32,045 bases of DNA from Candidatus Portnoyibacteriota bacterium (GTDB lineage Bacteria; Patescibacteriota; Minisyncoccia; Portnoybacterales; GWB1-42-6): contig JACQXN010000012.1 of assembly GCA_016208745.1 (NCBI GenBank), positions 6,681 to 38,725 of the forward strand, in the 5' to 3' direction. This document shows, piece after piece, positions 1 to 13,851 of this stretch. The notes under the pieces are model-generated. The model did no database searches. It was not told where the DNA came from and saw only the letters and a program-made list of their open reading frames with translations. Position 1 is the first letter of the stretch, and each line of letters opens with the position of its first letter. Made by a program: the position numbers and the translations under genes.

Positions 1-456
1 TTATTATCTACTTGTCTTATTGAGATTCTTGGAAATGTTATAAGGGGAGCATTTAAACCTACCGGAGATGCAAATATTGAAACATATTATAAGGGCATAA
101 TAAAAAAAGAAGTTGCTAATTTTTTTAAAGCGAAAAGTAAAGAAAATAAAAGGATTATACCAATTCAAGACCCCGATTTTAATGATGACCAAGAAGAAGT
201 AATAGCGCAAAAACCATTAGTTGCCAAAAGGGATATCTACGAAGATTCTATTCGGCAGGAGAAGCTTGAAAAATTAAGCAAAGCCATAAATAAACTTCCA
301 AGTAGACAAAGGAAAGCCCTTAATTTTTCTCTGAAAGAAATTAGACAAGAAGAAATAGCTAAAAAGATGGGCATAACCCAAGCCGGAGCCAATAAATTAT
401 TAACAAAAGCAAGGACGAATCTTTACAACCTTTTATTAGTGCCTAGGGGGTTATAA
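1..456 (+). CDS. Partial sigma-70-like factor (region 4-like C-terminus), 5' end outside window
   Basis: Frame 1 open from base 1 to TAA at 454-456; translation ...LEKLSKAINKLPSRQRKALNFSLKEIRQEEIAKKMGITQAGANKLLTKARTNLYNLLL... resembles a sigma region 4 HTH. Confidence 0.65.
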   Translation, partial: LLSTCLIEILGNVIRGAFKPTGDANIETYYKGIIKKEVANFFKAKSKENKRIIPIQDPDFNDDQEEVIAQKPLVAKRDIYEDSIRQEKLEKLSKAINKLPSRQRKALNFSLKEIRQEEIAKKMGITQAGANKLLTKARTNLYNLLLVPRGL

Positions 457-607
457 TTTTAGCCGATTAGGGGGATAAGTATGTAGAAGCTCAAAAGGAG
501 CTTTTTTTGTTTGAAGAACAAATCATATCTTATGCTATCCCCGTTTTATAAATCAAAATTTGATTCCATTTCAAAATTTAACTTCTTAACCCAGAACCAT
601 TTTAATA

Positions 608-877
608 ATGGTTTTTTTATTTATGGAAAATGATAAAAACTTCTTTGAAACCACAGACACTAATATCGCAGCGACCCTCGTTACTTTGGGCTGGCCGGTA
701 GAAATAACCGGTCATAGCCGGCAGGGTATCTTCATTTTTAAAAACAAAGAAGAGATGGAAAAATTGGTTGCCGATTATTGGGCGCATAAATTATCAGTTT
801 CTCCATTGAAGCTTTTAACAACTTGGAAGGAATTAAAGAACCGCGTGGCATCAATGCGAGGCGGTTATTTTGGATAA
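608..877 (+). CDS. Small conserved-type phage protein (DUF5659-like)
   Basis: 89 aa; '...VEITGHSRQGIFIFKNKEEMEKLVADYW...' pattern; inner ATG at 623 also possible. Confidence 0.55.
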   Translation: MVFLFMENDKNFFETTDTNIAATLVTLGWPVEITGHSRQGIFIFKNKEEMEKLVADYWAHKLSVSPLKLLTTWKELKNRVASMRGGYFG

Positions 878-880
878 AAT

Positions 881-1027
881 ATGGCTAAATCAGAGTTTTC
901 AAAATTTTCAAAAGAAAAAAAGGGCATTATTGTTGATGCTTTAGCTTTAATTTTTAAAAACAAATTTTATGCGAAAAAGATGTCCAGTTTGCGGCCAACT
1001 ACGAAGGCGGAGTGCTCAAAAAATTGA
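881..1027 (+). CDS. Small hypothetical ORF (48 aa) overlapping the next ORF
   Basis: ATG MAKSEFSKFSKEKKGIIVDALALIFKNKFYAKK... to TGA at 1025. Confidence 0.3.
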   Translation: MAKSEFSKFSKEKKGIIVDALALIFKNKFYAKKMSSLRPTTKAECSKN

Positions 1028-1190
1028 GGTGATTCCGTTAGCGGATTTAGCCAATGAATTGAACGATTGTTTAATAAATTTCTTTGAAAGTTGCTCAACC
1101 TGCGGCGATGGCCAGCTTCGGGAGATATATTATTGCCATCCAAAACAGGGGGTAACAGATATCAACCTTGATGCCAAAAATAATTTCTAG
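969..1190 (+). CDS. Small CxxC-containing protein
   Basis: 73 aa; CPVCGQ and CSTCGDG zinc-binding-like pairs. Confidence 0.5.
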   Translation: MRKRCPVCGQLRRRSAQKIEVIPLADLANELNDCLINFFESCSTCGDGQLREIYYCHPKQGVTDINLDAKNNF

Positions 1191-1241
1191 GTCAAGTTAA
1201 AGCGATAGGTTTTAGAAAATAATTTAGAATTTTTAAATTTT

Positions 1242-1988
1242 GTGAATAAATCATTTGAAACCGCCAAACAATACACCTCTAGCCATTGGTCAATAATTCC
1301 GATTGAAAGAGATGGCAAGCTGCCGGCTATTAAAGAAAAAGATTTTGTGGTTAGCCGGCGGAACAGATTAGCTACCGAAGCGGAAATGAAGAACTGGTTT
1401 TTAGATAACGACTATAATGTGGCGATTATTACGGGAGATTTTTCAGGGCTTCTAGTTGTTGATTGTGATAATGGTTTTAATATTAGGGATTTTAATTTTC
1501 CGAAAACCTTTTGTGTTGAAACGCCAAGAGGAGGAATGCATTTTTATTATCGTTGCCCTAAAGATATCGGTTGCCATGTGGGATTATTGCCCCATCTGGA
1601 TATCCGCGCCAATGGTGGATATGTTCTTTGCCCGCCTTCTGTGATTGATGGTAAAAGTTATCGGTGGGCAATAAATAGCCTTTACTGGGAACAAAGAATC
1701 GCTGAACCGCCAAAGTGGTTACTGAATTTATTAACTAAAAAGAAATCCGAATCCAAAGACTGGGAGAAGATAACTGCCGGAGCGCGAATTGGCGAGAGAA
1801 ACCAAACACTAGCTTCTTTGTCCGGCTTGTTATTTAGGTATATCCCAAAAGACAAATGGGAATCGGCTATTGTGCCTTTATTAGAAATTTGGAATCAGTA
1901 TGCTAACCAGCCCCCGCTGCCATCTGGCGAGTTTAAAACAACTATCCGGTCAATCGCAGCTAAAGAATTAACCCAAAAAAATGTATAA
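1242..1988 (+). CDS. Bifunctional DNA primase/polymerase (PrimPol/AEP-type) protein
   Basis: 248 aa, GTG start; 'WSIIPIERDGKLPAIKEKD', 'VVDCDNG', 'TPRGGMHFYYR', 'DIRANGGYVLCPPS' match the PrimPol pattern. Confidence 0.85.
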   Translation: MNKSFETAKQYTSSHWSIIPIERDGKLPAIKEKDFVVSRRNRLATEAEMKNWFLDNDYNVAIITGDFSGLLVVDCDNGFNIRDFNFPKTFCVETPRGGMHFYYRCPKDIGCHVGLLPHLDIRANGGYVLCPPSVIDGKSYRWAINSLYWEQRIAEPPKWLLNLLTKKKSESKDWEKITAGARIGERNQTLASLSGLLFRYIPKDKWESAIVPLLEIWNQYANQPPLPSGEFKTTIRSIAAKELTQKNV

Positions 1989-3069
1989 CGATAAAAGTTT
2001 TTTAGAAGGCATTATTGATTCCTGCTCAACCGCGGCTGCCCAAATCGGAGCTTTTGTCCAAAAGTTTTTTCCCGTAAGCCACGGCGAACTATATATTAAG
2101 GAATTTTCGCCAATAGCATGGTGTGTCAGCGGGTTAATTCCTGCTGAAGCCACAACAGCGATAGCTGGCGAACCTTGCGCATTTAAAACGTGGCTTTTAC
2201 TTGATTTCGCGTTAGCAATAGCTAAGGGAGAAAAATTTTTAAACATTTTTGAGACGAACCAAATGAATGTCCTTTTTATTGATGAGGATAATGGCGAGCG
2301 ATTGTTAAATCAAAGGTTAAAATTATTAAGTGCAGAAGGAAATTTGCCGATTTATTACTTATCGTATTCAGGTTTCCGCCTGAATAAAGAGGATGTTAAT
2401 GCTTTGTTGCCGTTTTGCGCGGAAAAGAATATTGGAATTGTGTTTATAGACGCTTTTCGGAATGTCCATGATGCCGACGAAAACTCCTCCACCCAAATGA
2501 AACCGGTTTTAGAATTATTTAAGCAGATAAATCAGGCAGGTATAGCCATTGTTTTTAATCACCACTCTTCTAAGCCGCCTCTTTTGGGGAAGGCAACAAC
2601 CCATTCTAAAATGCGTGGCACATCATCATTTAGAGCGGTTGTGGAGTGCGAAATCGACATAGACCTTATTTCACCGGATTCAAACACCATTATTATCACT
2701 CAGTCTAAAAATCGTTCCGCTGAACTTGTAACGCCATTTAAGGTTGAAGCAGTCTTTGGGGAGGATAAGTTTCATTTTGACTATTTAGGCGAAGCCGAAG
2801 AGAGAAAGGTAAAAAAATCTAAAATTAAGGATTTAATTAGGTTTGTCTTAACGGAAAACCCAATGAGCCAAGGGGATACCATAAATGCGGTTAGGAAAAA
2901 TAGCGAAGATGAAGTAGCAACAAGAACTTTTTATGAGGCAAAAAAAGAAATGTTGACTAAGGAGGAGTTGTTTGAAAAGAAAGCGGGTAAAAAGAAAATT
3001 TTATCTTTAAAAAGGCATAGTTTTGGGGAGCTCTTTGACACCAAAAACACATCTCAAAACAACGAATAG
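1981..3069 (+). CDS. RepA/AAA_25-type replicative helicase-like ATPase
   Basis: 362 aa; 'TTAIAGEPCAFKTWLLLDFALAIA' Walker-A-like, 'VLFIDEDNG', 'GIVFIDAFRNVH', 'IAIVFNHHSSKP'; overlaps the PrimPol stop by 8 nt. Confidence 0.75.
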   Translation: MYNDKSFLEGIIDSCSTAAAQIGAFVQKFFPVSHGELYIKEFSPIAWCVSGLIPAEATTAIAGEPCAFKTWLLLDFALAIAKGEKFLNIFETNQMNVLFIDEDNGERLLNQRLKLLSAEGNLPIYYLSYSGFRLNKEDVNALLPFCAEKNIGIVFIDAFRNVHDADENSSTQMKPVLELFKQINQAGIAIVFNHHSSKPPLLGKATTHSKMRGTSSFRAVVECEIDIDLISPDSNTIIITQSKNRSAELVTPFKVEAVFGEDKFHFDYLGEAEERKVKKSKIKDLIRFVLTENPMSQGDTINAVRKNSEDEVATRTFYEAKKEMLTKEELFEKKAGKKKILSLKRHSFGELFDTKNTSQNNE

Positions 3070-3290
3070 TGGCAATAGTGGCAAAAAGGGTGTTTGCCGA
3101 TAAGTTTTTGGCTTAACAAAGCCAAGAAATGCCAATTAAAATGCCAATAGTGGCAGAAACAACAGGAAAAAACCACCATTGCCGATATTTATTTGGCTCT
3201 ATAAAGCCAAATAATGAGGCATAGTGGCATAGTGGCAATACTATATATATATATGTAATGTTGCCGATGTTATTTGGTCTGCCGATATAA
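3065..3290. repeat. Iteron-like array with hairpins, candidate replication origin
   Basis: Five ATAGTGGCA copies (3066, 3075, 3147, 3221, 3229), four (T/C)TGCCGAT(A/G) copies (3094, 3179, 3261, 3279), hairpins at 3108-3125 and 3190-3213, TA tract at 3242-3253. Confidence 0.6.
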
Positions 3291-3430
3291 AAATCATTAA
3301 AAAAGCAGTCATGCGAGCTGTTAAAAATATGTTTGAGGAATACGATAAACTTAAAAAAAATAAAAGAAATACTCCTTGATGTAGTTGATGATTTAGTTAA
3401 GCATAATATTTTAAGCGCAAGATAAAAAAA

Positions 3431-3808
3431 GTGAAATACGAAAAATCAACAGACGCTACTTCTATGCCAGCCAAATATTTAAAAGCAAGGGTTTTAGGAA
3501 AATCAAAGACTGAAGCCTGCAGAGAAGCCGGCTATGCGGATAACCGCCATGTCCAGCAAATTGAGAGGACTAAAACCTTCACCTTGGCGCTAGAAGAAGT
3601 GAAAAACGTCTTTGATACTCAAATTGCTTTTAAAGACGTTATAACAGAGCATATCAAAAACATTATGCAGGATATTGATAAATCTTCAAAGAACGCAGCG
3701 ATAAAACTTTACTATCAAATCAACGGATTAATCGGTAAAGAAAAGGAGGAAATTATAGATTCCCAGCAAGTTTCAATTACCATGAGAGCGCCAAGAGAAA
3801 AGCTCTAA
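3431..3808 (+). CDS. Terminase small subunit-like protein
   Basis: 125 aa, GTG start; N-terminal 'AKYLKARVLGKSKTEACREAGYADNRHVQQIERT' TerS-like HTH; upstream of TerL. Confidence 0.65.
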   Translation: MKYEKSTDATSMPAKYLKARVLGKSKTEACREAGYADNRHVQQIERTKTFTLALEEVKNVFDTQIAFKDVITEHIKNIMQDIDKSSKNAAIKLYYQINGLIGKEKEEIIDSQQVSITMRAPREKL

Positions 3809-4019
3809 AAAACGCAAGAAAAAATAATTAAAAGGATTAAAGATAAGGATAGTAGATAAGTTGATAAGATAGAAGATTGATGAAGAGGATTAATAGTTTA
3901 GTTGTTATTTTTTTATTAATATTATTGGTTTATTTTTTATAAGATAGATTATTGGTTATTTGTGAGATAGATAAAGTTATGTTTGTGAGGTGGATTAATA
4001 TTATCTACGCACACCGCGT

Positions 4020-4270
4020 TAAATGGCCTAACTAATAAATAACCCAATATAAACTGGGTGAAGTAAATAATCCCCCCCTTAAAAAAGACTAAAACAATGG
4101 CTTAAATAAGGCAGATTCTAACGTTAAGAAGGAAATAGAAATACATCTGATTATTTACTGCCCCAAAGAGATATGGCCATTGTAGGTCAATATACGAGCT
4201 AGTAGCTCATTAAGCTATTTGTGCTAAAAAATAAATCTTGCTCTATTGAAACACCCTCTTATAGAGCTAA
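4020..4270. ncRNA. Candidate structured non-coding region between TerS and TerL (RNA or packaging site)
   Basis: Nested inverted repeats: ATGGCC 4023-4028 / GGCCAT 4174-4179, AGTAAATAATC 4062-4072 / GATTATTTACT 4149-4159, ACCCA/TGGGT, GAGCTA-G-TAGCTC, GCTCTAT 4240-4246 / ATAGAGC 4261-4267; no good ORF. Confidence 0.35.
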
Positions 4271-4417
4271 AACGAGTTTCCGAGTGCGAGTGGGGGGGGG
4301 AGGGAGTTGCCCCGCGAAAAGGATTTGTAAATATTGTTATTCACTCTATTCCCACATACCAAAATCTACATCTCAATATTCATGGCTCATTATTTCACAA
4401 ACTAAAAATTTAACTTT

Positions 4418-5884
4418 ATGTCTAAAGCAGAAACAATTAAAAAATACGAAAACGCTGGTAAGTCTTGGATTAACGGAGCAAAAATTGAAGAGATAGAACT
4501 CAATGGCAAGAAATTCATTTTTAACGAAAACCAAGCGAAGTTTATCAATGAACTTGATTCACGATACTGCCTCTACTCTGGAGGATTTGGTTCGGGTAAA
4601 TCTCTGGCTTTGTATATCAAGATGATTCTTTTCTGCCTATATTTTCCTAACAACAGAATTCTCCTTGGCAGAAAAACGTTTTCAGATATAGACAGGGCAG
4701 TCCTACCGGACTTATTTGAATTAATGCCGTCTAATTGGTATCACCACTCAATTAAAGCTGGCTTAATAGATTTCTTTAATGGCAGCCAAATAATTCTTTT
4801 TGCTCTTGATGCTCTTCAGGAAGGCTCAATGGCCGATATTAAGAAAGCCCAGCAGAAAGTTAAGAGCTTAAACCTTGGCGCATATTTTATTGACCAGTTA
4901 GAAGAGGTGGATGAAGAAGTCTTCGAGTCTCTAAATTCTCGTTTACGGAGAACTGATGCGCCCATCAGGCAGGGTAACATGACCTGTAACCCAGCTAATT
5001 TCTGGGCTTATGATTTTTTTAAAGTCCATCCTAAAGAAGATACGTTTTTAATAACCTCCTCTATGATAGAAAACAAAGCGAATCTCCCGCAGGATTATAT
5101 TGATGACCAGTTAAAAAAGGACGAAGGGTATATCCGGCGCTATGTCTATGGCGAATGGTCAATGGATGTAATGCTAAAATCTGTTGTCTTCTCCAAAGAC
5201 GCAATTAAACGATTTGAATTACTGGCTAGGCAACCCATAACTGAAGAAGAGGAGTGTAAAATTTACGAACTGCCGGATTCACAAAAAAGATACCAGATGG
5301 GGATTGACCCCAGCGAAGGCTCAACAGACCCGTCTAGTATCTGTGTGGTTTCCAACGAAGGCAAAGAGGTGGCCAGATTCAATAAATTTATCCCTATCCA
5401 TGGCCTAGTTGAAAAGGTTAAATTTCTGTATTACAAATATCACCATCCAAGAATTATTCCCGAAGTCAATGCGGCCGGTTACGCGCTGCTGGAAGGAATT
5501 AAGGATTTAAACGTAGCCCAGCGTGTAGTCTTTGAACAGCGTGAGCATTCTGATTCTGATAAGCTGGGTTGGAAAACATCTCATGCCTCAAAGACGGCTT
5601 TGATTAGTAATTTCCAGAATCTGTTAAAGCTTAATTTCCCCCAGATTTATCACAAAGAAACCATTGAAGAGTTTAAGACGTTTATTTGGAGTGATGAGTC
5701 AAGGCACAAGGGCGCGGGTGCAGAACGTGGCTGCCATGATGATAACGTGATGGCGACCCTGCTGGCCTTCTGGAACATGGAGGGTTACGCCAAGCCGAAA
5801 AAGACTGCTGCCCAGATAGAACTGGAAGCCGGTGCGAAATATTTCAGGAAATTTAAACGAATGCAGAATCAAGACTTTATTTAA
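4418..5884 (+). CDS. Terminase large subunit
   Basis: 488 aa; Walker A 'YSGGFGSGKSLALY', 'AYFIDQLEEVDEEVFESLNSRLRR', nuclease-like 'MGIDPSEG...DPSSICVV' and 'HDDNVMATLLAFWNM'. Confidence 0.92.
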   Translation: MSKAETIKKYENAGKSWINGAKIEEIELNGKKFIFNENQAKFINELDSRYCLYSGGFGSGKSLALYIKMILFCLYFPNNRILLGRKTFSDIDRAVLPDLFELMPSNWYHHSIKAGLIDFFNGSQIILFALDALQEGSMADIKKAQQKVKSLNLGAYFIDQLEEVDEEVFESLNSRLRRTDAPIRQGNMTCNPANFWAYDFFKVHPKEDTFLITSSMIENKANLPQDYIDDQLKKDEGYIRRYVYGEWSMDVMLKSVVFSKDAIKRFELLARQPITEEEECKIYELPDSQKRYQMGIDPSEGSTDPSSICVVSNEGKEVARFNKFIPIHGLVEKVKFLYYKYHHPRIIPEVNAAGYALLEGIKDLNVAQRVVFEQREHSDSDKLGWKTSHASKTALISNFQNLLKLNFPQIYHKETIEEFKTFIWSDESRHKGAGAERGCHDDNVMATLLAFWNMEGYAKPKKTAAQIELEAGAKYFRKFKRMQNQDFI

Positions 5885-5940
5885 AAAGTTTAAAAAGGTC
5901 GGAGATTTATAAATATAATTATTAATTTTTCACAAAAAAT

Positions 5941-6507
5941 ATGTCAAATGAAGAAGAATTATTTGCCGAAGCAGAGTTAGAAGATACTATTGAAATCCCA
6001 GAACCCGTGGAAACTATGGAGGAGGGAATAACCGAGGTGGAAGGAGAAGCTGAAGGGGAAGCCGAAGCTCCTAAATATTCCGACAAAGAAAAAGCCGCCT
6101 ATGCCAGAATGAAAGAAGCTATTTCAGCCATGAAAACTCTCCGGCAGGAAAATCGGGAATTGAAAGCCCAGCTGAATCCTACCGGTAGCGATGTTAGCCG
6201 AGATGTTTTAGAGATTGTTAGCGCGTTGGATGGTTACGGAAAAGAGGAGAAGGAAATTATTATAGACTACTCCAAAAAAACTGGCTTATCAGTCAGGGAA
6301 TCCTTAAATGACCAGATTCTCCAAATGGCCATAAATCAGAAAAGGCGGGAAGTTGAGCACGAGGGGAAAGTCCCTAAACCCTCTGTTTCTGGTGGAGGAG
6401 GATTTGGGAGTAAAAGTTATAAAGACGTTGAAAATATGAGTGCTGCTGAACATGCTGCGTTTGAGAAAGAGGAGTTGCAAAAAGATGGCGGCCGGTGGAG
6501 TATTTAA
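5941..6507 (+). CDS. Scaffold-like acidic/coiled phage protein
   Basis: 188 aa; acidic N-terminus, central coiled segment, C-terminal 'ENMSAAEHAAFEKEELQ'; directly downstream of TerL. Confidence 0.5.
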   Translation: MSNEEELFAEAELEDTIEIPEPVETMEEGITEVEGEAEGEAEAPKYSDKEKAAYARMKEAISAMKTLRQENRELKAQLNPTGSDVSRDVLEIVSALDGYGKEEKEIIIDYSKKTGLSVRESLNDQILQMAINQKRREVEHEGKVPKPSVSGGGGFGSKSYKDVENMSAAEHAAFEKEELQKDGGRWSI

Positions 6508-6538
6508 TTTTTAAACAAAAGAAAGGCAGGTGATAAAT

Positions 6539-6703
6539 ATGTCAAATGTAAAAGGTATTGATATAACTCCGGAGAAAGAGGAGTTAGCGAAAAAACTTGA
6601 AGCGAGCAGAAAGGATAATGAAAACAAAGACAAGAATCCTCATGTTGCTCCGAAAGTCCCAGCTGATGAAAACTGGAACGAATCCCCCAATAAGGGAATG
6701 TAA
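6539..6703 (+). CDS. Small hypothetical protein
   Basis: 54 aa MSNVKGIDITPEKEELAKKLEASRKDNENK...; preceded by AGGCAGGTG. Confidence 0.55.
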   Translation: MSNVKGIDITPEKEELAKKLEASRKDNENKDKNPHVAPKVPADENWNESPNKGM

Positions 6704-6752
6704 TTTTAATTTTTAAGCAGATAGGAAATAACAAGTATTTCCTAGTAATTAT

Positions 6753-7187
6753 ATGGCCGAATCTAAATTAAAACATGACGAGGAAGTGGCGGAACATCAG
6801 AAAGAGCAAGAGCCAACGAATCAAGATAAGCGTGATGCCCACTTGCTGAAGCTTGAGAAGCTGCGGAATCACTATGCCGATTTGCGGGAAACAGAGAAGT
6901 CGCTAAAAAAGAACGAGCTGTTTGCCGAAGAGGATTTTGCCTTCTTGAAAAACCCGCCTAAGAAAACAAAAGAAGAGCGGGAACTGATGACACCGGAAGA
7001 GTATGAACTCTGGTGTGTCGAGTGCGAGCTGTGCGAAGAGTGGGCAAACGAAGGAAAGGTCAAAAAAACAGAGGCCGCTGCGAGGGAAAAAATTAAGCAA
7101 GCTAAAGCTACTACTATCCCGATAGAAAAAGAAATTGAAGGGATGACACCAGCCGAGCATGAGGCCTTTGAAAAACTTAACGAGTAA
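6753..7187 (+). CDS. Highly charged hypothetical protein ending in 'EGMTPAEHEAFEKLNE'
   Basis: 144 aa; same C-terminal motif as the 5941-6507 product. Confidence 0.6.
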   Translation: MAESKLKHDEEVAEHQKEQEPTNQDKRDAHLLKLEKLRNHYADLRETEKSLKKNELFAEEDFAFLKNPPKKTKEERELMTPEEYELWCVECELCEEWANEGKVKKTEAAAREKIKQAKATTIPIEKEIEGMTPAEHEAFEKLNE

Positions 7188-7191
7188 TAAC

Positions 7192-7344
7192 ATGAAAAAA
7201 CAAAAACAAAAAACTAAAAAACAAATAAACTATTCCGCTTTATTAAAATCTCTAATTAAAAAAGGCGGTTTAGTTGTTAAGCGTTGGAATGGCAAAAAGT
7301 GGATTCCTACTAAATTCAAAGTCTTCTTTAAGAAAACAACATGA
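7192..7344 (+). CDS. Small basic hypothetical protein
   Basis: 50 aa MKKQKQKTKKQINYSALLKSLIKKGGLVVKRWNGKKWIPTKFKVFFKKTT; overlaps the next ATG by 4 nt. Confidence 0.5.
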   Translation: MKKQKQKTKKQINYSALLKSLIKKGGLVVKRWNGKKWIPTKFKVFFKKTT

Positions 7345-7946
7345 CTACAAAAGAATTCAAAAAATTAAAAAGACAAATAGATGTTACTATGGGGCAGTTT
7401 GAAAAAGAAGCGGTTGAAAACGGGGTTTCTCCAACCTCCAAAGAATTTAACGAAGCGGCTGAAAAGATAATTGAAAAGCTGGTAACTAACGCTGGATTTA
7501 GTTATGACGAATTTGCCAACATGGAGGCTAACGAACTTGATAGCGTGGACTTTAATATCAACGTTGGCGAGGGCTTAAAGAACGAACTGGAAAAAATCAA
7601 AAAAGAAATTAATGTTAAAGAAATTCCGGCTTTAAAATCCGAAGTTAAAAAAGCAACGGAGAAGATAGCGAAACTAGAAAACGATTTTGCGAACATTTGG
7701 GCAGAATTAGCCAAAAGTGGCAAATCATTAGCGGAGGTTAAGGGAAGCAACGACAAGCAGTCAATAGAAACTTCAGCTCAACTGGTAAAGTCTTTAGCCG
7801 CGCTCAAAGAGAAAGTTGTAAAACTGGAAACTACTCAACTGCAGCCAATGAAAGGAGTTGTGCAGATATACAAAGGCAATACTCCGCCTGAAGATAAAAC
7901 AATGTTATGGTGTGATACTTCTGAAGATAACGCGGGAAGATGGTAA
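7341..7946 (+). CDS. Coiled-coil protein with phage structural-type C-terminal peptide
   Basis: 201 aa; C-terminus 'VQIYKGNTPPEDKTMLWCDTSEDNAGRW'. Confidence 0.6.
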   Translation: MTTKEFKKLKRQIDVTMGQFEKEAVENGVSPTSKEFNEAAEKIIEKLVTNAGFSYDEFANMEANELDSVDFNINVGEGLKNELEKIKKEINVKEIPALKSEVKKATEKIAKLENDFANIWAELAKSGKSLAEVKGSNDKQSIETSAQLVKSLAALKEKVVKLETTQLQPMKGVVQIYKGNTPPEDKTMLWCDTSEDNAGRW

Positions 7947-7948
7947 CA

Positions 7949-7995
7949 AAAACCGCCTCAACTTTTAATTCTCTCGCATGGGTTGAGGCGGTTTT
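7949..7995 (+). terminator. Rho-independent-type terminator
   Basis: AAAACCGCCTCAAC ... GTTGAGGCGGTTTT, 14-bp perfect stem just after the stop. Confidence 0.85.
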
Positions 7996-8169
7996 AAGAA
8001 AGCATTAAAAATATTTATTATTTATTAAATCACAATAAATGTATCACCAGCATTACTACTTTTGTTGATAAAATCTATTTTAAGAAATTATGCCAGTTTT
8101 GCAGAGCAAAAGGAGATGTAGATTTCCGCACCTGCTTCTGTAAATGCGCGAAGAAACAAGAAAATAAAA

Positions 8170-8472
8170 ATGACCGAGTTAGAGAACATCCAGACAATGC
8201 AAAAGTGTCCGAGATTTAATACTTGCTCTATTGCGATTTGCCTATTGGATTATTTCCAAGAAGAAAGAGTTGGTTTGAAAAGCTTCCGCTCTGATGAGCC
8301 AAAATGCACTATGGCAAAAAGTATCAGATACCGGATTGGTAAAGATACCAAGTTGCCATACCAAGGACTAACTAAAAGGGAATGGATTGGAAAATATAAC
8401 TGGGACAAAAAAACACCCGCAGAGAAACAGGTGATTATAGAGAGGGGCAAGAAGTCATTAAGCCGCCTCTGA
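8170..8472 (+). CDS. Hypothetical protein with N-terminal Cys cluster
   Basis: 100 aa; 'MQKCPRFNTCSIAICLLDYF'. Confidence 0.6.
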   Translation: MTELENIQTMQKCPRFNTCSIAICLLDYFQEERVGLKSFRSDEPKCTMAKSIRYRIGKDTKLPYQGLTKREWIGKYNWDKKTPAEKQVIIERGKKSLSRL

Positions 8473-8519
8473 TAAGGGCTTTTGGGGCATTATTTCCCGA
8501 TTTGCCCCTTGTATCAGAG
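8467..8519. terminator. Two-tier hairpin between convergent genes
   Basis: CTCTGATA 8467-8474 / TATCAGAG 8512-8519 enclosing GGGGCA 8484-8489 / TGCCCC 8503-8508. Confidence 0.5.
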
Positions 8520-8563
8520 TTGTAACCCCGAAGTAGTAGTTTATATCGGGTAGCTCTTTAAAA

Positions 8564-9072
8564 TTATAGTTTCCCCATATTTATCCAAGGGGTAGAGCCG
8601 CCTTGCAATCTCCAAATATTACCGCTTTTATCAAGGAAGAAATCAACTTCCCATTGTAAAATTTCAGAAGTCGGGATAGAAACATTATGACTTGGCCAAG
8701 CTAAAAAGGTTTTAAAGTTAGGATTCCAAAGCCAAGTTGTCCCATCTGTTTTAAGAATAATAGGCTCATTCTGCTCTTGGCTTATAAATGCGATATTATC
8801 TGTTCCGATAACTCCTGATAGTCCTTTTTCGCCTTGAATGCCTTGCTCGCCAGTATCTTATCTCCCTTTAGGCCTTGAATATTCCAAGTCAACAATTTGT
8901 CATTCTTTTTGCAATCATCTCTCCTAAACCCTTCTCCAATTACATAAACCAACCCGCTTTTTTTAACACAGACGCTGATTGTATCGCCAGCGGCTCTGGT
9001 ATAAGTCCATAATCCTATTGTCAAACCTACCGCTACGATACTTATTATTAAAATTACTATTGTTTTTTTCAT
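8564..9072 (-). pseudogene. Frameshifted collagen-like exported/membrane protein
   Basis: N-terminal TM segment then 'NIQGLKGDK' in one frame; the adjacent frame continues 'GEQGIQGEKGLSGVIGTDNIAFISQEQNEPIILKTDGTTWLWNPNFKTFLAW...WINMGKL*' to the stop at 8564. Confidence 0.7.
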
Positions 9073-9113
9073 AATATTTTTTCTTTTAAAAAGTTAATAA
9101 TAAAATTTTTCAT

Positions 9114-9473
9114 TTATTTAATATCTTGCATATTCTCAATCGGTGATTCTTTGGTTTCTCCTTTTTCTGTATATTTTACAATACAAGTATTTCGCCACTC
9201 CTCATAATAAATACCCACTATATTATTCCACCTTTGTTTTAAATCTTTTAGTAATGTTTGACATTTTAAATTATTACTAAAGTCTGTGTCTGCCTTGTCT
9301 TTTTCCGTTTTTACTTGGTCTGCTTCCGCTTTTGCTCTGTCTACTGCTGCCTTTGCTTGTAGCTCTACCTGCCGTTGCTTTTCAATAGACTTCTGTTTAT
9401 TTACTTGGCTCACATACCAAAATCCTCCTAAAATAATACACCCCAGCATAAATATTAGCTGCTTTATTGGCAA
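9114..9473 (-). CDS. Small membrane-anchored coiled-coil protein
   Basis: 119 aa; N-terminal TM then Lys/Glu/Ala-rich coil. Confidence 0.55.
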   Translation of the reverse strand: MPIKQLIFMLGCIILGGFWYVSQVNKQKSIEKQRQVELQAKAAVDRAKAEADQVKTEKDKADTDFSNNLKCQTLLKDLKQRWNNIVGIYYEEWRNTCIVKYTEKGETKESPIENMQDIK

Positions 9474-9921
9474 GAATTAGACAGCGAAGCAAATCCCTAA
9501 TGTTAATTTTTCCTGATGATGTAGAATAATTATATTTATCTCTTAATTTCATTCCCTTAGGATGTGCAAATTCATTTCTATAAGAATTTACCTTTAATAA
9601 ATTATTCACTGGAAAATTATCATTATATTCTTTTACAATCTCAATTTTATTTCTAAAAGAAACATAGTTTGATAGTATTCTATAAAAATCTTGCGAAAAA
9701 TATACATCTGTGCCATCTTCACCTTTTTTAATAATCCCTTCCTTCCTGAATTGATAACCTATACGAATTTCCAGAAGTTCCTCAAGGTGAGCGTGAGTTG
9801 AGATTACTCTTGCTTGTAATTCTCTTAATTCCGGCGTTAGATAGGCAGGGTGAATATCCCCCAAATTATCCAGCTCATTCTTTAGTTCATCAATTTCTTC
9901 ATCAATGGCTTTCCTTCTCAT
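9397..9921 (-). CDS. HEPN-like protein
   Basis: 174 aa mostly helical; 'SYRNEFAHPKG' fits the HEPN Rx4-6H motif (R-NEFA-H). Confidence 0.5.
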   Translation of the reverse strand: MRRKAIDEEIDELKNELDNLGDIHPAYLTPELRELQARVISTHAHLEELLEIRIGYQFRKEGIIKKGEDGTDVYFSQDFYRILSNYVSFRNKIEIVKEYNDNFPVNNLLKVNSYRNEFAHPKGMKLRDKYNYSTSSGKINIRDLLRCLILANKAANIYAGVYYFRRILVCEPSK

Positions 9922-10100
9922 TTTGTTTGCCTTTTTAATAATTTATTCAATTCTTTTTCAGAAATTCTAGTATTCTTGCGGGAAATTTTAATAGTCTTAA
10001 TTTTGCCAGCCCGAACATAACGATAGAATGTTGGCTCGCTTATACGAAGTATCTGTATTACTTCCCGAATAGTTAAAAGGTTTCCGATTCTTTTTGACAT
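9918..10100 (-). CDS. Excisionase/MerR-type HTH DNA-binding protein
   Basis: 60 aa; 'LLTIREVIQILRISEPTFYRYVRAGKIKTIKISRKNTRISEKELNKLL'; 4-nt overlap with the HEPN-like gene. Confidence 0.8.
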   Translation of the reverse strand: MSKRIGNLLTIREVIQILRISEPTFYRYVRAGKIKTIKISRKNTRISEKELNKLLKRQTK

Positions 10101-10171
10101 CTATTGATAGTTTAAGGCACTTTTAAAAAATTAGCAAATTATAGAAATTGCAGACTTGTTGATGATAGCTA

Positions 10172-10199
10172 TTGACAGGTTGTGTGGATTTGTTAAAAT
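10172..10199 (+). promoter_or_regulatory. Sigma-70-type promoter
   Basis: TTGACA - 16 nt - TAAAAT. Confidence 0.65.
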
Positions 10200-10205
10200 A
10201 GAGGC

Positions 10206-10312
10206 GTTGAGGATAAATCAGTATAGCAGAAGCTTTTATTTTTTGATAAAATTGTAGAAGCCCGAGAGCTGGTTTATCCTCAACAGATAACTTTTGCTCC
10301 TCGGGCTTTTAT
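10206..10312 (+). ncRNA. Candidate small RNA with interleaved stems (H-type pseudoknot or attenuator)
   Basis: GTTGAGGATAAA 10206-10217 / TTTATCCTCAAC 10273-10284 interleaved with AAGCCCGAG 10258-10266 / CTCGGGCTT 10300-10308, then TTTATATTT. Confidence 0.6.
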
Positions 10313-10321
10313 ATTTCTAAA

Positions 10322-10432
10322 ATGAGTTACACGCTAGGCGGTGTTATTCTCCAAAACTTAATAGAAACTCTGCCAATAATGCTTTTAGTTACACCATTTA
10401 TTTATTGGCTAGTGTTTAAGAAATTAAAATAA
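10322..10432 (+). CDS. Small single-TM peptide (36 aa)
   Basis: MSYTLGGVILQNLIETLPIMLLVTPFIYWLVFKKLK, hydrophobic with basic tail; no clear Shine-Dalgarno. Confidence 0.4.
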   Translation: MSYTLGGVILQNLIETLPIMLLVTPFIYWLVFKKLK

Positions 10433-10500
10433 TTCAGGGAAGCAGTAAGCGGTAGCCAGTGGGGCGGCTTCACTGAACGCTGGCTATCGCTTATTCTGAA
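10433..10500. repeat. Inverted repeat upstream of the small serine recombinase
   Basis: TAAGCGGTAGCCAG 10446-10459 / CTGGCTATCGCTTA 10480-10493 (one G.U), outer TTCAG/CTGAA. Confidence 0.7.
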
Positions 10501-10520
10501 ATAATTAATAATTTAAAAAT

Positions 10521-11075
10521 ATGACAAACTTAAAAATCGGGCTTTATGCCCGCGTATCAACAGACGAACAAAATATTAATACCCAGATAGTAGCCATTAA
10601 GGATTTCTGCCAAAGGAATGACTACAAAATAGCTGAGCAGTATCTGGATGTAGGAATATCCGGCTCTACTGATTCAAGGCCGGCATTTAATAAATTAATC
10701 AATGACGTTAGAAGCGGCCGGATTAATTGTATTGTGGTTTATAAGTTAGATAGGATTGGCAGAAGTTTGCAGCATCTATTAAATCTTTTTGAAGAGTTTA
10801 GATATAGAAAGGTTGAGTTTGTTTCCTTAACCCAAAATATTAATACCAACACTCCGGAGGGAAAAATGTTTTTAAGGTTGCTGATGGTTTTAGCTGAATA
10901 CGAAAGGGAGCTGATTGTTTCAAGAATTCACAGCGGGCTTGATAGGGCGCGAAAGGAAGGCAAGACACTAGGCAGGCCAATTGGTGCAAAGGATAGCAAA
11001 CGCAGAAAGCTATCCGGCTACTGGAACAGATGGGCTGATAAGAAGCAGAAAATAAGAGAGTTAGTTAAGGCTTAA
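10521..11075 (+). CDS. Small serine recombinase (resolvase/invertase family)
   Basis: 184 aa; 'GLYARVSTDEQNINTQ', 'VYKLDRIGRSLQHLL', 'LAEYERELIVSRIHSGLDRARKEGKTLGRP'. Confidence 0.95.
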   Translation: MTNLKIGLYARVSTDEQNINTQIVAIKDFCQRNDYKIAEQYLDVGISGSTDSRPAFNKLINDVRSGRINCIVVYKLDRIGRSLQHLLNLFEEFRYRKVEFVSLTQNINTNTPEGKMFLRLLMVLAEYERELIVSRIHSGLDRARKEGKTLGRPIGAKDSKRRKLSGYWNRWADKKQKIRELVKA

Positions 11076-11079
11076 ATTT

Positions 11080-11400
11080 ATGAGAAAACACAAAACAAAC
11101 ATACCATCCGAGTTGGAAATTTTAAAAGATACATTGAATAGATTAAAGCGCTATACCAAAAAATATCCAGTTGCTTCACTTATGTTGCCCCACGTGGCAA
11201 GGTTAATTGAGCTAGAAGAAGAAAATCAAAGTGAAATCAGGAGGGAAATTATCCCAGAATTTTTAGTGCGAGAAAAAAGAGAAGCTGAAAAGAAAGAGTT
11301 AAATAAAAAATTAGGGAATATTAATAAAGCTGTATTCTCTGTGTCAAAAAAATATAGCAAAAAACAGATTGAAAAATTGGTTGCCGATTTTAGAAAATAA
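11080..11400 (+). CDS. Hypothetical protein between the two recombinases
   Basis: 106 aa; near-contiguous with both neighbours. Confidence 0.6.
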   Translation: MRKHKTNIPSELEILKDTLNRLKRYTKKYPVASLMLPHVARLIELEEENQSEIRREIIPEFLVREKREAEKKELNKKLGNINKAVFSVSKKYSKKQIEKLVADFRK

Positions 11401-11409
11401 AATAATAAA

Positions 11410-13011
11410 ATGCCAACAGCATTAGACAATAAAATAATTGCCAAGACGCTGCGCGCAGCCGTCTATGCCAGACTTTCAACCGAAGAGCAGAACCGGCAGG
11501 ATTTATCCATGCCTAAAGTGCAGATACCCAAAGCCATGGATTATATCAGGGAAGCCGGCTGGCGGTTTATTAAAACCTATACTGATGTTGCTGATTGCAA
11601 TAAGTTTGATAAGCGCGCCGGCCTGCAGGAAATGTTAAGTGAAGTTAAGGACTTTGATATTATTGTGGTTTATGAGTTTGCCAGATTATGGGGTGATTCA
11701 GATTATACCAAGGGGAGGATTTTTAACATACTGGATAAAAACCGGATTCAAGTAACCGCGGTATTACAGAAAACAGCCATAGTAACGCCGGAAGATTATG
11801 ACCCCAAGTGCATGAACGTAAAAAACCAACGATTAATTTCTGGTATAGGGGTAGCCTATGACCGAGGGAGAAGGCGGGAAAACTTTATGGCATCCAGACT
11901 AGCCACAATAAACAATGGCAAGTGCGTAACCTCTCTCATCTATGGCTATGATATTAAAAGAGAAATCCATCCAACTGATAACAAAAGGACAATCGGTTAT
12001 CGGATTATCAATGAATACGAAGCCTCGGTTTTAAAAAGAATTCTAAATGAAAGAACCAACGGGGGAAGTTTAAGAAAGATTACAGCCGGTTTAAATAAAG
12101 ATGGCATCAAAACTAAAAAGGGCAAGGAGTGGACTTGCACTAATTTATCGCGCTTAATCAAGAATCCTCTTTGCTGCGGATATTTTTATTGGAATAAAAC
12201 TCAAGATAGAAAGATGGATGATGAGAGAATCTGTTTGCGGATACCTAAAGAACGCTGGAAGCTGATAACAATTAGCAAAGAGAGGGAAAGATATTATAAG
12301 CCGATTGTAACCAAAGAAGTCTGGGAGAAAGCCCAGCAGGTAGGTAAGATTTACTCCAACTTAAAAGGCAGAGCCGGCCATAGTAGGAATATCCTTGCCG
12401 GATTGCTTTACTGCGCGCATTGTGGAGGCGGAATGAATGAAACGTCTTTTAGTTGGCGTGGAGGGAAGCTTAAGCCCCTACATCTAACCAGCTACTATGT
12501 ATGCAGGGAATGGTTACAGAAAAATAAGTGTGATAAGAAAGGCCATAATGCCCAGAGAACAAAAGAGCAGGTAATCAGCGAGGTTGAAAGATATCTTAAT
12601 TGTCCGGAGGCCTTTGAGATAGCTTTAGCTAGCCAGAAGAATGAAAAAATTGGTGAGAAGAAAAAGGAAATTAGAGGCTGGGAAACGAAGCTCCGCCAAA
12701 CAGAAACTCGGCTTTATAATTTAAACCTTGATTGGATAGATAGGAAAATAAAAGAGGGCTACTACCATGAGCTATTGCAGAATTTGGAAGACGAACAGAT
12801 TAAAACCAGAGGCCATTTAATTGAATTAAAAGACGGGTTGAAGGAATTAGAAGAGAAGCGCGAACAAGTCTATAAGGTGCAATCATTGGCCGAAGAGATT
12901 AAAGAGGGAATCAATCAATTAGATATTCCACAGCAGAAAATTCTAATGCAGATGTTGATAGAAAAAGTTATAATTATTGACGGAGTGCCTAAGGTTAGCT
13001 TTAAAATCTAA
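11410..13011 (+). CDS. Large serine recombinase (integrase)
   Basis: 533 aa; 'AAVYARLSTEEQNRQ', recombinase domain 'YGYDIKRE...', zinc ribbon 'CAHCGGGM...YYVCREWLQKNKC', C-terminal coiled coil. Confidence 0.95.
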   Translation: MPTALDNKIIAKTLRAAVYARLSTEEQNRQDLSMPKVQIPKAMDYIREAGWRFIKTYTDVADCNKFDKRAGLQEMLSEVKDFDIIVVYEFARLWGDSDYTKGRIFNILDKNRIQVTAVLQKTAIVTPEDYDPKCMNVKNQRLISGIGVAYDRGRRRENFMASRLATINNGKCVTSLIYGYDIKREIHPTDNKRTIGYRIINEYEASVLKRILNERTNGGSLRKITAGLNKDGIKTKKGKEWTCTNLSRLIKNPLCCGYFYWNKTQDRKMDDERICLRIPKERWKLITISKERERYYKPIVTKEVWEKAQQVGKIYSNLKGRAGHSRNILAGLLYCAHCGGGMNETSFSWRGGKLKPLHLTSYYVCREWLQKNKCDKKGHNAQRTKEQVISEVERYLNCPEAFEIALASQKNEKIGEKKKEIRGWETKLRQTETRLYNLNLDWIDRKIKEGYYHELLQNLEDEQIKTRGHLIELKDGLKELEEKREQVYKVQSLAEEIKEGINQLDIPQQKILMQMLIEKVIIIDGVPKVSFKI

Positions 13012-13851
13012 CGCTATAGAGTGTCCGTTTACAATATCACAATTATTGCCTCATTTTTTATGACGATTTTTGGCTGGTTTATGTTGCCGCGAAACGCCAG
13101 ATTCTGGTTGGCTGTTTTGGCAATTGTATTTTTTACTATTTTAACCGGCGCTTCAGCTTCTGTTGTTCGCGCCTCTATTATGGGAGTTATGGTTCTGGTG
13201 GCGCGACAAGGCGGCCGGCTTTACAGCGTCAAAAACGCTCTAGTTTTTGCGGGCGCAGTAATGATTTTTTTAAATCCTAAAATTTTGCGATTTGATATTA
13301 GTTTTCAGCTTTCGTTTCTGGCGACGGCCGGTTTGATTTGGCTGGCGCCAGTTTTTGACCCCGTAATACAACTTTGGCTGTCGCCAAAGGCGACAAACAA
13401 AACCAGAATGCCAAAGTTGATATACGGGGTTGAAAGATGGTCTATCACTCAGAAATTTATAGAAATCCTTGTGACCACTTTTTCGGCACAACTAGCAGTT
13501 TTGCCTTTAATTTTGGTATATTTTAGCCAATTGTCTCTCATTTCGCCTTTGGCCAATATGGCGATTTTATTATTAGTCCCTTTTGCAATGCTTCTTGGAT
13601 TTTTAATCGGCGGGCTTGGCATAATTTGGCTTTGGGGCGCTAAAGTTTTAGGCTGGGTTTTGTGGCTTATTCTAACTCTAAAAATTAAAATGATTGAATT
13701 TTTTGCCGGCTTGCCTCTAAGCTCTTTAGAAATGCAATGGGATTGGATTTTTGCCATAATTTATTATCTGATACTTACATTATTTCTGCGATGGTTTTAT
13801 CAAAGACAAAAATCCGGAATTTTGGTGGAAAAATACGCCACAGATAATTAG
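13012..13851 (+). pseudogene. comEC: comEC 3' fragment (competence domain), 5' part missing at the element junction
   Basis: 'VSVYNITIIASFFMTIF...LTGASASVVRASIMGVMVLVARQGGR...NPKILRFDISFQLSFLATAGLI' is ComEC core; usual N-terminal part absent, frame opens right after the integrase stop. Confidence 0.85.

Follow-up and report, generated by a model that had tools for sequence, protein, structure and literature searches.

Upstream of a small serine recombinase gene in an integrated element of a Candidatus Portnoyibacteriota bacterium, a promoter-like site is followed by two interleaved inverted repeats and a U-rich stretch. Does this locus encode a regulatory RNA, and how might such an RNA act on the genes of the element? 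To our knowledge, almost nothing is known about the choice between dormancy and activity that Patescibacteria and Omnitrophota mobile elements make.

The locus and its element

The window analyzed, a stretch of 32,045 nt, comes from contig C21 of the 859-kb genome G000. Its first 13 kb (1-13029) are part of an integrated element of ~13.6 kb in total, which splits the DNA-uptake channel gene comEC into a left half on contig locus L015 (5330-6106) and a right half starting at window position 13021. Both ends of the element carry the 9-bp core TTACAATAT (at ~6082 on the L015 side), and joining the flanks in silico yields ...ALSGYNITIIASFF... and restores the comEC frame. Genes for a prim-pol, an AAA ATPase, a large terminase, an HTH_17 protein and small and large serine recombinases were identified. 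Since terminase-like and replication genes are present and the element proteins scanned gave no match to portal or capsid families, the element may represent a phage satellite or else a divergent prophage. Searches of Patescibacteria with the recombinase (289 and 384 genomes) and with the large serine recombinase (279 genomes) revealed no close relative of the element. A 32-nt direct repeat (745-776 and 11358-11389, 91% identical) is located in coding sequence with shared EKLVADY/F-like residues, one copy near the start of the element and one near the end of a 106-aa ORF.

The RNA site is flanked on one side by the divergent HTH_17 gene (9918-10100, minus strand) and on the other by the small serine recombinase gene, which starts 210 nt past the end of the predicted RNA. 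The features are as follows:

10172..10199, plus strand: sigma-70-type promoter, TTGACA-16-TAAAAT with extended -10 (TG), 11/12 match, predicted start ~10206
10206..10312, plus strand: predicted RNA of ~107 nt, a terminator-ended leader or small RNA (sequence, folding and motif scan)
10206..10221, plus strand: arm A, 5' strand of the A:A' stem (sequence pairing)
10255..10266, plus strand: arm B, 5' strand of the putative terminator stem (sequence pairing)
10269..10284, plus strand: arm A', partner of A; its 3' part doubles as 5' strand and loop of hairpin h
10274..10290, plus strand: hairpin h, TTATC-CTCAACA-GATAA, which would cap the terminator and compete with A for A' (sequence; h covaries in six Omnitrophota RNAs)
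10300..10311, plus strand: arm B', 3' strand of the putative terminator stem (sequence pairing)
10307..10317, plus strand: U-rich putative terminator tail CTTTTATATTT, overlapping B' (sequence)
10322..10432, plus strand: 36-aa hydrophobic ORF (MSYTLGG...) between RNA and recombinase, outside the conserved module
10521..11075, plus strand: 184-aa small serine recombinase of the Resolvase family (PF00239), the probable regulated gene, with relatives that have the RNA directly upstream

The promoter-like site consists of a -35 element (10172-10177), a 16-nt spacer and a -10 element (10194-10199) preceded by TG, and it ranks first among 24 promoter-like sites within 9000-13200 (4.2 kb). The A:A' stem comprises 16 bp including one G.U, 12 of them perfect, and the B:B' stem 12 pairs. 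The 5' part of arm A complements the h loop, and its inner part is a copy of the 3' strand of h (GATAA). An earlier sequence-only reading had placed the promoter, the arms, the tail and the ATG at 10322 correctly; the 12-nt and 9-nt arms it described are present, but it had drawn both stems too short.

A scanner for interleaved A-B-A'-B' stems followed by a T-rich tail found one match only across both strands of the window, with a score of 26. Sixty window-length dinucleotide shuffles (1.9 Mb) contained one match with a score of 18, and in 2.09 Mb taken from real genomes (G000, a second genome of its phylum and one from Omnitrophota, both strands) there were ten, the best again scoring 18, showing that the window motif is not due to chance. 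The A fold has a minimum free energy of -35.3 kcal/mol (z = -4.2), and none of 200 shuffles folded equally well. Together with the near-consensus promoter, the rarity of the motif points to a promoter-driven structured RNA, as had been proposed. At the gathering threshold of Rfam 15 a tRNA is the sole match in the window, so that the RNA is assigned to no family, and permissive scans of the window region, L032 and L041 gave matches far below threshold or none. DNA searches recovered the window itself and one 23-bp chance match among 39 relatives, and chance-level matches in a phage collection. Unlike a ToxI-like type III toxin-antitoxin RNA, with its repeated pseudoknot units and adjacent ToxN-family endoribonuclease, the window RNA contains a single unit and its neighbors include no ToxN-like family.

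Two further observations concern the surroundings of the RNA. A gene for a 174-aa protein (9397-9921, minus strand) forms an overlapping operon with the HTH_17 gene, divergent from the RNA; the protein has neither a Pfam nor a PADLOC match, and its RNEFAH motif resembles the HEPN Rx4-6H ribonuclease motif. A second inverted repeat (10446-10493) with 14-bp arms, one mismatch (G.U as RNA) and a 20-nt spacer lies between the 36-aa ORF and the recombinase gene; no U tract follows, and it is possibly a recombinase site or a second RNA hairpin.

Probably related RNAs in Omnitrophota elements

Among seven genome-contig relatives, locus L017 (JADFXX010000012.1) from the Omnitrophota, a distant phylum, encodes a recombinase 58% identical to that of the window and carries an independent A-B-A'-B' motif, whose terminator tail ends 17 nt before the recombinase ATG. 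A recombinase search of 386 Omnitrophota genomes yielded L041, with a recombinase 86% identical to that of L017. A first covariance model, built from these two with stem A alone paired, detected L057, in which 24 nt separate the RNA from a downstream recombinase match of only 40% identity. A second model added L090 as well as L089 and L091, both from genome G771, resulting in a total of six RNAs. In all RNAs found with the covariance models the B stem pairs as expected, although it was not used in the first one. Matches of model R1 in other genomes (E 0.01 to 0.4) were rejected, as they had no interleaved B stem and terminator tail comparable to those of the family.

The Omnitrophota RNAs lie 3-30 nt upstream of a start codon or its Shine-Dalgarno sequence. 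The next gene encodes a small serine recombinase in L017, L041, L057, L090 and L091 (truncated in L091); in L089 the RNA is followed by a lipoprotein-like ORF and then a tyrosine recombinase. A TTGCAA-17-(T/C)ATAA(T/C)-like promoter, or CATATT, is found at a fixed distance in the same place as the window promoter. The distance between A and B is 29-30 nt throughout the six, and the tail reads (G/A)TTTTATTT in four of them, being degenerate in L057 and L090. Genes for XRE or LexA-type repressors and genes of primase/helicase type are present in the elements as well.

A tree places the L057 recombinase in a clade remote from that of L017 and L041. In G771, a 217-bp block of promoter and RNA, 96% identical, is present at L089 1384-1600 and, as reverse complement, at L091 1384-1600; it ends exactly at the U tract and is flanked by different genes up- and downstream at the two loci. 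These data show that the RNA travels with its promoter and not with one gene.

Covariation was first visible in tool-made alignments. With two sequences, four of 20 pairs are changed on both sides and none is broken; with three, eight of 20 show changes on both sides and 98.3% of cells are paired (slid controls: 0-2 pairs). For all six RNAs the stem segments were registered by hand, leaving out the variable linkers. Here both partners change in 13 of the 20 pairs (A 7/10, B 6/10) and 119 of 120 cells are paired, while none of 500 shuffles was as good and slid controls reached 2-3 pairs; the tool-made three-member alignment agrees with this result. Hairpin h covaries too (changes on both sides in two of four pairs, all cells paired). 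Both interleaved stems are consequently under selection, as the sequence-only reading had supposed, and the compensatory changes among relatives, whose absence it had named beforehand as grounds for giving up the proposal, are seen in the Omnitrophota RNAs. Departures from Watson-Crick pairing in the six consist of six G.U and one U-U, with no A.C. Since the wobbles are G.U and never A.C, the signal is that of an RNA on the recombinase sense strand and not that of a DNA palindrome.

Does the window RNA belong to this family? It has the same layout, with the order A-B-A'-B', h within A', a terminator tail, a promoter just upstream and a small serine recombinase gene downstream. No homologue close enough to align with it was found: model R2, used at E up to 10, did not list it among its matches, the locus of the nearest recombinase relative (L016, 63-65%) lacks an RNA of this kind, and the window spacers (42, 7 and 16 nt) differ from those of the six RNAs (29-30, 2-7 and 4-8 nt). 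Because of the R2 result and the longer spacers, membership is argued from topology, h, promoter, neighboring gene and motif rarity and not from alignment. Weighing these features, we lean slightly towards homology of the window RNA with the six Omnitrophota RNAs.

The 36-aa peptide, which had been suggested to be gated by the RNA along with the recombinase, was rejected as part of the module: it has no family match and no relative among the fetched loci, inspection revealed no Shine-Dalgarno-like sequence, and the Omnitrophota loci contain no such ORF between the RNA and the next gene. The position of the RNA ahead of the recombinase gene, by comparison, fits that suggestion.

Two loci encountered in these searches are recorded here. 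An Omnitrophota element inserted at miaB (L070, 2644-18238) encodes a large serine recombinase, a LexA-like repressor, a SIR2-type protein and, beside a Vsr-like neighbor, a DNA cytosine methyltransferase. Contigs of Nanoarchaeota MAGs (L018 and L019) carry a recombinase ~60% identical to that of the window element beside a conserved 93-aa ORF, possibly due to cross-domain transfer or a binning error.

Competing folds and a candidate attenuator

All six RNAs contain h between B and B', with its 5' strand and loop inside A'. It reads ACUC-CCCCCA-GAGU, AUCC-CCCACA-GGAU, AUCC-UUCAUA-GGAU, AUCC-CCGACA-GGAU (twice) and AUCU-CUGGCA-GGAU; the window has UUAUC-CUCAACA-GAUAA, and L090 can form the same UUAUC/GAUAA stem. 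As A:A' and h both require A', they are mutually exclusive, which makes the leader bistable. Two mutually exclusive covarying helices, as expected of a bistable attenuator, are thus found in the six RNAs, and A:A' and h are both present in the window RNA. The intrinsic terminator likewise expected, a GC-rich stem followed by a U run, is found in the window, L017, L041, L089 and L091.

Folding predictions agree with two competing states. RNA truncated at B' is predicted to adopt A:A' in 7/7 RNAs, and the terminator fold lies within ~10 kcal/mol of the A fold, in either direction, the two being nearly equal in L017 and L089. The following energies of terminator fold and A fold (kcal/mol) are nearest-neighbor estimates without pseudoknots:

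Window: -31.8 and -35.3
L017: -36.7 and -36.5
L041: -31.0 and -27.7
L089: -33.0 and -32.2
L090: -27.3 and -29.8

Of the two possibilities offered originally, a pseudoknot or competing folds with one a terminator, the second is supported by the predicted folds.

With moderate confidence, we interpret the RNA as the leader of the recombinase/early operon of the integrated element, working as a bistable transcription attenuator. The folding of truncated transcripts suggests that A:A' would form first during RNA synthesis. Once B' is made, A' could refold on itself as h and B could join B', so that B:B', capped by h and followed by U's, would act as an intrinsic terminator. The choice between read-through to the recombinase genes and release of the ~107-nt RNA would depend on the state of A, free or bound by a protein, a ribosome or another RNA; A:A' would oppose the terminator, and premature termination would limit expression of the recombinase/early operon. 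Such an RNA is probably a hitherto unrecorded switch that helps to decide when the element becomes active. Being compact, running from promoter to terminator and covarying strongly, it lends itself to synthesis and in vitro testing without culture of the host.

A different role, which we consider unlikely, is that of a free-standing small RNA acting in trans and equipped with a promoter and a terminator of its own, by analogy with the immunity of phage P4 conferred by CI RNA: the C-rich A'/h loop, which resembles an anti-Shine-Dalgarno sequence, would pair either with further mRNAs or with the leader while it is being made. The unit from promoter to terminator is complete, the G771 block stops at its U tract ahead of two different genes, and the recombinases next to the RNA come from two widely separated clades, that of L057 and that of L017/L041. 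Moreover, A' of L017 is complementary to the Shine-Dalgarno sequence of the recombinase (duplex -21.5 kcal/mol, 0/200 shuffles), giving a seqA-seqB-seqC layout as for P4 (PMC4825925). However, this complementarity is at chance level in the window, L041 and L057, A is always present in cis and masks A', and a place just 5' of recombinase start codons is common to five of the six RNAs. General sequestration of Shine-Dalgarno sequences by A' was rejected, being significant in L017 only, and trans action is therefore a minority hypothesis.

Rather improbable, in our estimate, is a scheme in which A'/h of a finished RNA would capture arm A of a nascent one and thereby impose the terminator, silencing recombinase and replication genes in an RNA-only lysogeny switch. 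If true, the RNAs would constitute a new family, found in both Omnitrophota and Patescibacteria elements, in which the terminated leader itself is the immunity factor and silencing reinforces itself.

We likewise regard as improbable a static H-type pseudoknot, in which A:A' and B:B' would exist together and be bound by a protein such as the recombinase as a control site for translation or termination. A and B have no bases in common, both covary and the linkers are in principle long enough, but h, which is incompatible with full A:A', is also conserved and covarying, and in L089/L091 the linkers from B to A' and from A' to B' total 6 nt around a 10-11 bp stem. As h, overlooked in the sequence-only reading, shares A' with A, the static pseudoknot is the weaker reading.

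That the repeats are a DNA site bound by the serine recombinase or an HTH protein, for instance an invertible half-terminator, is very unlikely: they adjoin a recombinase gene and inversion of the A-A' segment would destroy the terminator, but the arms differ by G.U-type changes only (6 G.U, 0 A.C), the ground on which an invertible DNA switch was rejected, the interleaved B stem has a U tail, h is present, and the 29-30 nt spacing is without the dyad sites expected for such enzymes. Equally unlikely is an ordinary terminator beside a coincidental inverted repeat, unrelated to the Omnitrophota RNAs; the window has no sequence-profile match to the family, but the score of its motif exceeds the best in 4 Mb of controls, and order, recombinase neighbor and h are the same, with the stem TTATC/GATAA common to L090 and the window.

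Comparison with known regulatory RNAs

The CI RNA of phage P4 is an immunity leader with the layout seqA-seqB-seqC, compared here together with IsrK of Gifsy-1 (PMC4825925). The comparison is attractive since A' complements an upstream segment and, in L017, the Shine-Dalgarno sequence of the recombinase. Both are short leaders from a promoter of early or replication genes of an element, with premature termination as the (here proposed) means of control, and both contain an internal segment complementary to an upstream segment (all RNAs here) and to a downstream one (L017 only). In contrast to CI RNA, the RNAs described here match no Rfam family, the upstream arm to which A' is complementary belongs to the same short RNA, five of seven end in a hairpin resembling an intrinsic terminator, and action in trans is a candidate role.

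The repR leader of pIP501/pAMbeta1 adopts alternative folds, one of them a terminator. Its attenuation is brought about by the antisense RNAIII (PMC4981023). In both cases alternative folds including a terminator would limit expression of a key gene of a mobile element; here, however, no antisense promoter is evident across the leader, and the target would be a recombinase and not a replication initiator. The c4 antisense RNA (RF01695) and c4-a1b1 are phage RNAs with segments complementary to neighboring leader segments (PMC2864571). Complementary leader segments are shared with the RNAs described here, which have no match to the c4 family in Rfam even at permissive E-values. The STAXI motif consists of tandem small pseudoknots with UUCG loops near genes for DNA-manipulating proteins, including integrases (PMC2864571). 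It resembles the present RNA as a pseudoknot-type element near such genes, but the latter is present in single copy and has a different topology.

In textbook attenuators, one strand of the terminator stem is also part of the early stem. Early fold and terminator are mutually exclusive there as well as here, whereas in the RNA described here the early stem takes the capping hairpin of the terminator and encloses B. The switch element of this RNA, which lies outside Rfam, would be the hairpin that caps the terminator, opposed by a copy of one hairpin strand located further upstream.
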